Source: Apostichopus japonicus (Eukaryota > Echinodermata > Holothuroidea > Aspidochirotida > Stichopodidae). Taken from it: DNA of 64,000 bases. Below are positions 12,988-31,912 of the stretch, piece after piece. The stretch is taken from positions 18,495,001 through 18,559,000 of the forward strand of contig NC_092568.1 of assembly GCF_037975245.1 (NCBI RefSeq), read 5' to 3'. Every line of letters begins with the position of its first letter. Position 1 is the stretch's first letter. A program made the position numbers and the translations under genes. Below the pieces are notes generated by a model that saw only the letters and a list, made by a program, of their open reading frames with translations, made no database searches and was not told the DNA's origin.

Positions 12988-13161
12988 TTAATTCCCTTCA
13001 TATTTGTAGAATTTCTCTTGATGTTGTGACGATGTCAATTTACATTTCGAGTACACAAACTTCCTCATTCCTTCTTTACCTTTCATCCTCGCTGCCCTCC
13101 GTTCTTGGCCTACCTTGTGCAGATTGGCCGCTCTTAAACTTGGTGCCGCAGCCCTAGGTGC
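12988..13161 (-). CDS. cpRAS-VWA terminal exon 17
   Basis: Residues 744-800 and TAA. Basic helical C-terminus ([13 protein letters not shown]). Acceptor TTTATAAAG. Phase 0 is forced because the other frames meet a stop within about ten codons. Confidence 0.85.
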   Translation of the reverse strand, partial: APRAAAPSLRAANLHKVGQERRAARMKGKEGMRKFVYSKCKLTSSQHQEKFYKYEGN

Positions 13162-31100: not shown

Positions 31101-31912
31101 AACTACATTTATATAATATTAAATCTATAATTAAATCAATTTGTGTCAAAAGCATTATAGAACGTTGCCTGGGTCTCAGGTTTGTTCAGGACAGATGGAT
31201 GATGTGGAAAGACAGCACCAGAAGAGACGACAGATAGACAGGGTTTTCTGCAGTTTCTATTATTATATATTTCCACCGCTTCTCGAAACAACCAGAAAAT
31301 ATAAGTGCAGAGGTTTTTTCTACAATACTAACTAAACAAATTAAATTGTATTTACAACGTTGCTCACAAACGCAAATCGTGACAATCAGAGGTCTTCAAG
31401 TAAATTCTGTCTGAATGATTATTGCGTTCAAAATATCCACTCCTTTTACTTATTTTACTAAATGTTTTACTTGATAAAAGTTGTTAGCATTGCATCATGC
31501 TAACAAGATATTTCGCAATGCTACAGCTCGCTCATGGCACAGTAAGAATCGTTAGCATTGCACAATGCTAAACAGGATGTGGCGCAATGCTAGCAGGTTA
31601 GCATTACATCATGCTAACAACCGAGGCTCAAATTCTGGTGAGGGGGCGGAGTACTAAATTGAAGGGAGAACATGTACCCTTTACAATTAGAACACAGAGC
31701 AGATGCATCTTTATTGTAAACAGATGAATAATACAGAATTCATAATCAAAGATCATCAATATCCCCACGTGATCATCAGCAATAACACTTACATCTTCAT
31801 CATTCTTTTTCAGATCATCCAAGCTTGCTTTCTTCAATCCTTCTTCCAACATTATCACATCAGCATCGTCGTCTTCTCCTTGCAGATAGACAAACTTACT
31901 TCCGAATTCCAT
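12988..31912 (-). CDS. Circularly permuted RAS GTPase-zinc ribbon-VWA protein (cpRAS-VWA), complete
   Basis: Seventeen coding exons, all with AG acceptors and GT donors and matching phases, give 2403 nt, 800 residues plus stop. Order: acidic N-terminus (1-40); RAS motifs G3 LDTAGQEEF (residues 49-57), G4 NKSD (108-111), G5 ETSAK (136-140), then G1 GSGGVGKSS (169-177) and switch I/G2 DPTIEES (T194). The G domain is therefore permuted to G3-G4-G5-G1-G2. Next come a Sec23/24-like zinc ribbon (C271-x2-C274 ... C299-x2-C302) and a VWA domain with DVSSS (D354), T476 and TDG (D502), the complete MIDAS metal site. The C-terminus is helical and basic. The conserved Gln of DTAGQE and all P-loop residues are present, so GTP binding and hydrolysis are plausible. 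This combination is the published cpRAS-VWA family, patchy in animals and protists, of unknown cellular role. 'Circularly permutated Ras protein 1' is the usual database name. Exon joins were deduced by eye. Confidence 0.93.
13664..13772 (-). CDS. cpRAS-VWA exon 16
   Basis: Residues 707-743, including [18 protein letters not shown]. Acceptor TTTGACAG, donor AGG|GTAAGT (phase 0). Confidence 0.87.
15038..15129 (-). CDS. cpRAS-VWA exon 15
   Basis: Residues 677-706 plus two bases, an Ala/Lys-rich helix ([13 protein letters not shown]). Donor CT|GTAAGT. Confidence 0.87.
15365..15725. repeat. 31-bp minisatellite in intron 14, about 11-12 copies
   Basis: Units share CAGGTGCACAGGCAACGCCC and CATAGAATATC. 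Some units are 30 bp (ATAGATATC). The inverted copy at 41690-42105 has about 13 units. Confidence 0.93.
16449..16544 (-). CDS. cpRAS-VWA exon 14
   Basis: Residues 645-676, phase 0/0: [18 protein letters not shown], a strand pair reminiscent of Sec23/24 beta-sandwich sequence. Donor GTTAGA. Confidence 0.87.
17209..17337 (-). CDS. cpRAS-VWA exon 13: beta-sandwich-like region
   Basis: Residues 602-644, phase 0/0, with alternating hydrophobic residues such as ELTFRFQ. Donor GTGAGC. By my count it differs from exon 13' at 4 of 129 bases. Confidence 0.88.
17925..18640. repeat. Inverted-repeat arm at right end of block A
   Basis: Reverse-complement partner of 8815-9625, lying in intron 12 of the intact gene. 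The equivalent pair in copy 2 is 38865-39600 and 47225-49395, the latter interrupted by a hAT-like insertion. Confidence 0.8.
19339..19578 (-). CDS. cpRAS-VWA exon 12: VWA C-terminal half
   Basis: Residues 522-601, 80 codons, phase 0/0. ISVIGIQTD is a core strand; the GGTINLLSP turn ends the VWA fold, as in Sec23/24-like trunk domains. Not present in copy 2. Confidence 0.9.
20161..20341 (-). CDS. cpRAS-VWA exon 11: MIDAS Thr and Asp
   Basis: Residues 462-521. [10 protein letters not shown] provides T476 and [10 protein letters not shown] provides D502, the remaining MIDAS ligands. Acceptor TTTCCTCAG, donor AAG|GTCAGA. Not present in copy 2. Confidence 0.93.
21445..21656. repeat. (AT)n array in intron 10
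   Basis: About 210 bp of AT dinucleotides with a few CTATAT interruptions, inside block B. Confidence 0.95.
21885..22082 (-). CDS. cpRAS-VWA exon 10: VWA strands
   Basis: Residues 396-460 plus two bases. KAGLVSFGS is the typical second VWA core strand. Acceptor TCCTTCAG, donor GTAAGT. Not present in copy 2. Confidence 0.9.
22891..22966 (-). CDS. cpRAS-VWA exon 9: VWA helix 1
   Basis: Residues 370-395, [11 protein letters not shown], the first helix after the MIDAS loop. Phase 1 in, phase 2 out. Not present in copy 2. Confidence 0.88.
24064..24215. repeat. Inverted-repeat arm flanking exon 8 (left)
   Basis: Contains ACATTCAGACCGAGGACCCC and GTTCAAATCCACTTACCGTA, which recur reverse-complemented at 25515-25660. 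The pair encloses exon 8 and the 61-bp minisatellite. In copy 2 the arms are 49985-50110 and 51400-51560. Confidence 0.7.
24392..24557 (-). CDS. cpRAS-VWA exon 8: VWA start, DxSxS
   Basis: Residues 315-369 plus one base. After a beta-rich lead, [13 protein letters not shown] gives the first MIDAS element. Acceptor GTTGCAG, donor CAAG|GTAGCA. Confidence 0.92.
24840..25180. repeat. 61-bp minisatellite in intron 7
   Basis: About six units sharing GAACACTAACATATCGCCCA and CTCCAGGGTTTTGTTCACG at 61-bp spacing. The copy 2 array is at 50695-51000. Confidence 0.93.
25515..25660. repeat. Inverted-repeat arm flanking exon 8 (right)
   Basis: Reverse-complement partner of 24064-24215, ending in a GTGTGCGTGTG-like tract. 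Degraded in copy 1, better preserved in copy 2. Confidence 0.65.
25728..25773 (-). CDS. cpRAS-VWA exon 7: second zinc knuckle
   Basis: 46-bp microexon, phase 2 to 0. It completes TWMCDFC, the second Cys pair (C299, C302), followed by acidic EVDVSDEE. Donor GAA|GTAAGT (GCAAGT in copy 2). Confidence 0.88.
27729..27957 (-). CDS. cpRAS-VWA exon 6: linker and first half of zinc ribbon
   Basis: Residues 223-298 plus two bases of C299. A basic stretch (SRRRS) precedes a strand-rich region and CCKCPAIL. Acceptor TTTTAAAAG is weak in pyrimidines; other AGs lie within 20 nt, so the exact start is the least certain boundary. Confidence 0.85.
28396..28570 (-). CDS. cpRAS-VWA exon 5: G1 P-loop and G2
   Basis: Residues 165-222 plus one base. 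[13 protein letters not shown] is the P-loop and DYDPTIEES is switch I. Acceptor TTTACAG, donor AGAG|GTATTA (phase 1). Confidence 0.93.
28936..29118 (-). CDS. cpRAS-VWA exon 4: G4 and G5 motifs
   Basis: Residues 104-164, phase 0/0. ILCGNKSDL supplies guanine specificity and ETSAK supplies G5. The donor is weak (AGG|GTTGGT) but kept in copy 2, and only this end keeps the frame into the P-loop exon. Confidence 0.88.
29619..29738 (-). CDS. cpRAS-VWA exon 3: RAS core strand/helix after G3
   Basis: Residues 64-103, phase 0/0, [13 protein letters not shown] and onwards, matching the RAS segment between switch II and NKxD. Donor GCC|GTAAGT. The donor end is deleted in copy 2. Confidence 0.92.
30213..30281 (-). 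CDS. cpRAS-VWA exon 2: G3 motif
   Basis: Residues 41-63, phase 0/0. Contains [12 protein letters not shown], the RAS switch II region with the catalytic Gln. It is placed N-terminal of the P-loop, which is the key sign of permutation. Confidence 0.93.
31483..31618. repeat. Cluster of short palindromes in intron 1
   Basis: Three near-identical 21-22-bp palindromes with arms GTTAGCAT/ATGCTAAC at 31483-31504, 31551-31571 and 31597-31618, with half-sites between. Only the last is fully kept in copy 2 (about 56618-56639). Confidence 0.75.
31793..31912 (-). CDS. cpRAS-VWA exon 1: start codon, acidic N-terminus
   Basis: Residues 1-40, beginning [12 protein letters not shown] and rich in Asp/Glu. 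Donor GAT|GTAAGT. The ATG is preceded by an acceptor-like CTTCAG at 31931-31933, so this exon probably begins with 18 nt of 5' UTR (to 31930) spliced to an upstream noncoding exon. Confidence 0.88.

Follow-up and report, generated by a model that had tools for sequence, protein, structure and literature searches.

A circularly permuted Ras GTPase that appears to sit within a Sec23/24-like protein body in Apostichopus japonicus

How can a Ras GTPase whose motifs have been reordered to G3-G4-G5-G1-G2 fold and work, and what do the proteins that carry it do? Both questions were left open when the cpRAS-VWA (CPRas1 type) family was described (Elias and Novotny, 2008; PMC2430557), and they are raised again by a gene, here called gene A, in a stretch of 64,000 nucleotides of the A. 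japonicus genome (the window; contig C8:18495001-18559000). Gene A is a new member of this already known family. Its product is probably an intracellular Sec23/24-like scaffold with a Ras GTPase inserted into its first loop, working as a GTP-gated, adaptor- or coat-like protein, a reading to which we give a probability of roughly 0.6. Computed support comes from homology to Sec23/24, from an N-terminus shared with relatives that have no GTPase, from conservation of the GTP site, the zinc ligands and the metal ion-dependent adhesion site (MIDAS), and from constraint on the GTPase exons; the gating is what we infer from them.

Gene A and its product

On the minus strand, 17 exons running from 31912 to 12988 join in frame into 2403 nt, or 800 codons and a stop. 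Their phases are consistent and no internal stop occurs; the start codon lies at 31912, the stop ends at 12988, and all 16 introns have GT..AG ends. This reconstruction returned limits identical to those of the original prediction, which had placed 17 exons and 800 codons within 12988..31912. The product aligns end to end with P0001 (792 aa), an A. japonicus protein named 'circularly permutated Ras protein 1-like' by NCBI (742/797 identities, 5 gaps, 93%). The tblastn pieces of P0001 break off at these exon borders to within a few residues. Together with the in-frame reconstruction, the P0001 alignment rules out that the model is a fortuitous string of open reading frames (ORFs). Exon 6 has two alternative acceptors spaced 15 nt apart, and P0001 fits the downstream one; gene A could therefore also give a protein of 795 aa. 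Upstream of the start codon the sequence resembles, on inspection, part of a spliced exon with a 5' untranslated region. The exons, with the parts of the protein assigned to them, are as follows.

31793..31912, minus strand: exon 1, start codon, conserved N-terminal peptide (putative first strand of the Sec23/24-like body) and acidic linker
30213..30281, minus strand: exon 2, Ras strand 3 and the G3 motif DTAGQEEF
29619..29738, minus strand: exon 3, Ras core
28936..29118, minus strand: exon 4, G4 NKSD, G5 TSAK and last Ras helix
28396..28570, minus strand: exon 5, G1 GSGGVGKS, G2 DYDPTIEES, strand 2 and start of the linker
27729..27957, minus strand: exon 6, linker, strand and the first zinc-ribbon CxxC; two alternative acceptors
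25728..25773, minus strand: exon 7, second CxxC of the Sec23/24-type ribbon, with WMCDFC spanning the splice
24392..24557, minus strand: exon 8, VWA strand with MIDAS DVSSS
22891..22966, minus strand: exon 9, VWA
21885..22082, minus strand: exon 10, VWA; among the VWA exons, the most divergent of gene A from paralogues C and D
20161..20341, minus strand: exon 11, MIDAS threonine (GSTALGPAL) and aspartate (CTDGQPN)
19339..19578, minus strand: exon 12, end of the VWA trunk and start of the beta-sandwich
17209..17337, minus strand: exon 13, beta-sandwich (Pfam Sec23_BS, below cut-off)
16449..16544, minus strand: exon 14, beta-sandwich
15038..15129, minus strand: exon 15, helical domain
13664..13772, minus strand: exon 16, helical domain
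12988..13161, minus strand: exon 17, C-terminal tail and stop; diverges rapidly among the paralogues

The motifs of the rebuilt protein run DTAGQE (G3), NKSD (G4), TSAK (G5), GSGGVGKS (G1) and DYDPTIEE (G2), and C-terminal to the GTPase come a CCKC...CDFC ribbon and a complete MIDAS VWA domain (DVSSS...T...TDG), all in the order first proposed. This order, the TIE motif, the zinc cysteines and the VWA/Sec23 trunk confirm the assignment to the cpRAS-VWA family, whose name A. japonicus proteins already carry at NCBI. Pfam finds Ras in two stretches (2.7e-44) and VWA_2 (1.3e-6; 29.4 bits, cut-off 27). The Sec23 families remain below their curated cut-offs, at 18.8 of 25 bits for zf-Sec23_Sec24, 18.4 of 27 for Sec23_trunk and 25.3 of 33.5 for Sec23_BS; of the Pfam hits that had been expected, Ras and VWA were obtained above cut-off and zf-Sec23_Sec24 below it. 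The permuted order stands in one ORF also in two relatives, P0012, with 875 aa and a longest contig of 3158 bases, and P0051, a eukprot transcript. Permuted Ras and VWA are found in the fungi Ramaria rubella and Exidia glandulosa (P0088, P0089) on contigs of more than 100 kb. The transcript ORF P0075 encodes a cpRAS protein bearing a RING finger at its C-terminus, for which PMC2430557 gives a parallel in Naegleria. The description of the VWA domain as adhesion-type found no support, since the sequence has no leader peptide. It also lacks a C-terminal cysteine, and on both counts the protein is likely to be intracellular and soluble.

Invariance was counted over 57 aligned relatives, picked by us out of 108. 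All 57 retain the GxxxxGKS residues of G1, DPTxE in G2, the lysine and aspartate of NKxD, the four zinc cysteines and the full set of five MIDAS ligands, and 56 retain the catalytic glutamine of DTAGQ. The earlier suggestion of an intact switch, made from the retained glutamine, P-loop and MIDAS ligands, agrees with this; the predicted protein has all the G1-G5 residues and the catalytic glutamine of an active Ras GTPase. Residue 197 (exon 5), at the position of the Ras effector-loop aspartate, HRAS D38, is Glu in gene A and P0001 and Asp in the remaining 56 of the 57-row alignment. Comparison with two paralogues at the same locus, genes C and D, points in the same direction as the motif residues. 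Amino-acid-changing differences in GTPase exons 2-5 number 2 (A-C), 1 (A-D) and 3 (C-D) over about 421 sites, against 56, 37 and 47 over about 1337 sites in exons 6-17, and silent rates are alike in the two regions. In gene A, exons 10, 11 and 17 are conspicuous in the comparisons with C and with D alike, and exon 6 only in that with C. Judged by these counts, constraint is stronger on the GTPase exons than on the rest of the gene.

The same counts bear on the idea that the GTPase is a frozen structural module, with its nucleotide bound and no switching. A search of the open-licence literature found no report of a GTPase-activating protein, guanine nucleotide exchange factor or effector for cpRAS, and Anand and colleagues, as cited in PMC2430557, held that this permutation should impair folding. 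The near-invariant glutamine, the invariant DPTxE and the fact that the GTPase exons are the least changed among A, C and D argue against such a module, which we consider unlikely.

Position of the GTPase

In Ras, switch I and switch II flank the hairpin that joins strands 2 and 3. Residues 40-156 correspond to R-Ras chain positions 53-170 and residues 163-210 to positions 10-57; against Salpingoeca Ras the matching blocks are 51-167 and 6-50. The borders of these blocks place the new ends of the GTPase in that hairpin, where PMC2430557 likewise puts them. Permutation would let a Ras domain be inserted with both tethers on its moving part.

The original prediction had the GTPase fused ahead of a VWA protein. 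We read it instead as an insertion within one Sec23/24-like body, because the first residues of the protein seem to belong to that body. The start M-x-F-G-[SGN]-x-x-[VIA]-[YFLV] is present in 44 of the 57 aligned cpRAS proteins, several others come near it, and about ten first residues are conserved from amoebae and fungi through animals. Relatives without Ras have the same start, for example P0131, P0140, P0153 and the brown alga P0162. A hidden Markov model (HMM) made from the 57 cpRAS N-termini matched 25 of 62 Ras-less proteins at an independent E-value below 1, 15 of them below 0.01 and 20 starting at residue 1; the 62 are all the proteins listed without a Ras domain, and include 7 without a starting methionine, fragments, the A. 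japonicus fragment P0009, and P0138, which has a Ras G2 remnant. The remaining 37 gave no match; some are fragments and several have a different start. Among the controls the HMM matched 1 of 124, a fish protein whose real peptide, at residue 67, had been retained despite trimming. An earlier test had given 19/34 relatives and 0/68 controls, but those 34 were picked after their N-termini were known, and the test was therefore repeated on all 62. A regular expression matched 102 of 130 proteins at residue 1 (shuffles, 30/6500); it was written after inspection of the sequences, covers the 130 of 182 proteins that could be classed and had GTPase-bearing fragments in its 'less' class, and for these weaknesses we rely on the HMM tests.

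Predicted structures of two relatives, P0001 (the 93% identical protein) and the GTPase-less P0131, allow the same question to be asked of the fold. By fold comparison and sequence profiles, the zinc ribbon, trunk, beta-sandwich and helical domain come in the order of Sec23 and Sec24; the Sec23/24-like layout that had been suggested thus held, and the coat-like function suggested with it gained nothing from these comparisons. In the AlphaFold2 model of P0131, residues 1-30 are confident (96/89/88) and show strands in a pattern resembling that of P0001, and residues 36-127 are mostly disordered; in P0001, residues 1-10 are confident (95) and 11-40 less so. Residue 1 pairs with Sec23a residue 17 in both models, and the GTPase of P0001 (about residues 40-210) occupies the loop that is mostly disordered in P0131. 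An alignment profile of GTPase-less relatives recovered the similarity of the trimmed protein to Sec23/24 in the PDB; as a single-sequence query the trimmed protein found no match there at E up to 10. Towards the C-terminus, where Sec23/24 have a gelsolin-like domain, the Sec23 fold alignments stop near residue 616-622, and some Sec24 rows reach further. What looks new here, as far as sequence and predicted models go, is that the N-terminus and the C-terminal part can be read as one Sec23/24-like body; among the open-licence PMC papers that our searches listed, we found no description of cpRAS as an insertion in such a body.

The nested arrangement could also have come about in reverse, if the common ancestor had cpRAS and the GTPase-less relatives excised it, leaving the disordered linker. 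In a quick search, a single gain or loss sufficed on a tree of 98 bodies (Shimodaira-Hasegawa-like approximate likelihood-ratio test 99), a tree that is unrooted, has rows picked by us, three long end branches and 13 rows of unusual composition, and on which one change explains either direction. Sec23, Sec24, ArnB and 4fx5 share the body and are not known to contain a GTPase. Absence is hence likely the older state in the superfamily and insertion the simpler direction, which makes loss improbable.

Less probable again is a simple fusion as drawn in 2008, with an independent permuted Ras placed before an unrelated VWA protein and preceded by a meaningless N-terminal tail. The N-terminal 40-66 residues were then described as poorly conserved and without recognisable homology (PMC2430557), and the majority of the listed Ras-less proteins, as given above, have no N-terminal match. 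A meaningless tail is, however, difficult to reconcile with first residues whose conservation spans amoebae, fungi and animals and which stand at residue 1 of many Ras-less relatives, are confidently modelled in proteins of both types, and are paired with those of Sec23 and Sec24.

Gene copies and other features of the window

P0001 was searched against the whole 672-Mb, 35-contig assembly and the exons were then mapped onto fetched stretches; exon joining and reading covered A, C and D. Five cpRAS-VWA copies match all 17 exons (some matches being partial in length), and a sixth, copy B, is broken. Genes A (minus strand), C (minus) and D (plus) lie within about 180 kb at C8:18.508-18.688 Mb. 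Genes E (minus) and F (plus) lie at C10:19.035-19.098 Mb and correspond to the annotated proteins P0005 and P0004, respectively. The C/D and E/F pairs are oriented head to head, and A and D lie within an inverted duplication of about 55 kb whose pieces are 92-97% identical. Gene D has lost the upstream exon 6 acceptor and must therefore use another. Copy B lies in the window, was absent from the original prediction, and has its parts on opposite strands.

50277..56951, minus strand: copy B, 5' part, holding exons 1-8; exon 1 is frameshifted and exon 3 cut short; C-like
40160..44993, plus strand: copy B, 3' part, exons 13-17 in a single open frame; D-like

Exon mapping found neither exons 9-12 of copy B nor any 5' exons on the plus strand. 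Self-comparison had suggested that the 3' half of copy B was inverted, and with it an inversion switch, in which a flip between repeat arms could bring the spare exons 13-17 into line behind exons 1-12. This was dropped, as the wider locus agrees better with two neighbouring truncated genes, one a D-like 3' half on the plus strand and the other a C-like 5' half on the minus strand; two deletions in segmental duplications would account for them.

It is very improbable that gene A is itself non-functional, or an artefact of misassembly or missing phasing in this region. The locus is dense with direct and inverted duplications, most of them 87-98% identical, and includes a clearly broken copy, but all 17 exons of gene A are intact and its introns GT..AG, its differences from C and D fall mainly outside the GTPase, and close relatives of its product are annotated in public records.

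The intron between exons 14 and 15 holds a short tandem repeat at 15355-15718, with copies about 30 bases apart, and the same repeat is present in copy B. On the minus strand, 33479-33979 is an open stretch of 167 codons in which Pfam finds nothing convincing and which presumably resembles the end of a retrotransposon reverse transcriptase. A Pfam search of ten other ORFs of the window gave as its sole noteworthy match a 7tm_3 (class C receptor) fragment at 476-784 on the plus strand, weak (E 7e-7) and below the Pfam cut-off.

A possible mode of action and comparison with known systems

The scaffold would consist of the N-terminal strand, the zinc ribbon, the VWA trunk with its complete MIDAS residues, the beta-sandwich and the helical domain, with the complete Ras GTPase inserted into its first loop by ends that lie in the interswitch hairpin. 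GTP loading and hydrolysis would change the shape of the switch regions and exert a pull on the two linkers; the pull would move strand 1 and the ribbon-side strand, altering what the VWA face or the body binds. The protein would then be a GTP-gated adaptor or coat-like scaffold with a partner bound through the metal site. ArnAB, in which phosphorylation toggles a related body between loose and tight complexes, shows that such a body can be gated (PMC12852372). A GTPase nested in this way, its two ends at the interswitch hairpin, would give a concrete and testable answer to how the permuted protein folds and works, and a host from the Sec23/24 superfamily whose metal-site residues are complete narrows the function towards GTP-regulated scaffolding. 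More tentatively, cpRAS might be a plug-in GTPase: permutation would allow insertion into a loop and wire the movement of switches I and II into the host, making of a metal-binding, Sec23/24-like scaffold a one-chain counterpart of Sar1 plus Sec23.

Mentions of expression in the literature, and the passages considered of PMC12852372, PMC12819142, PMC8195603, PMC3505798, PMC5560681, PMC11764893 and PMC4082629, state no function. The fish proteins P0163, P0165 and P0173 (trout, eel, conger) are named 'circularly permutated Ras protein 1' and have no Ras domain (by Pfam check for P0163 and P0165, by listing for P0173). An expression table for eel uses this name (PMC5560681), and since some fish genes so named have no Ras domain, expression reports under it may concern GTPase-less relatives.

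Gene A is like the cpRAS-VWA family in its motif order, its RAS-type TIE, the four-cysteine ribbon upstream of the VWA domain and the VWA/Sec23 C-terminal half; no distinguishing feature was seen, and its 800 aa are slightly under the roughly 840-970 stated in PMC2430557. The CPRas2 type (P0093; DdiCPRas2, PMC2430557) has the same permuted Ras, also internal, but in an alpha-2-macroglobulin-like host. Among the proteins of this second type, P0093 is a transcript ORF and P0099 additionally has an F-box. Compared with Sec23 and Sec24 of the COPII coat, the inserted Ras and the complete MIDAS residues are features of gene A; Sec23/24 themselves are not known for complete MIDAS residues. Archaeal ArnB and bacterial 4fx5 match the body in fold over about 350 residues. 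ArnB has a VWA domain with a sodium-binding MIDAS, a beta-sandwich and a helical domain, and ArnA supplies the zinc ribbon (PMC12852372). ArnAB is switched by phosphorylation, and the passages of that paper considered here mention no GTPase for it.
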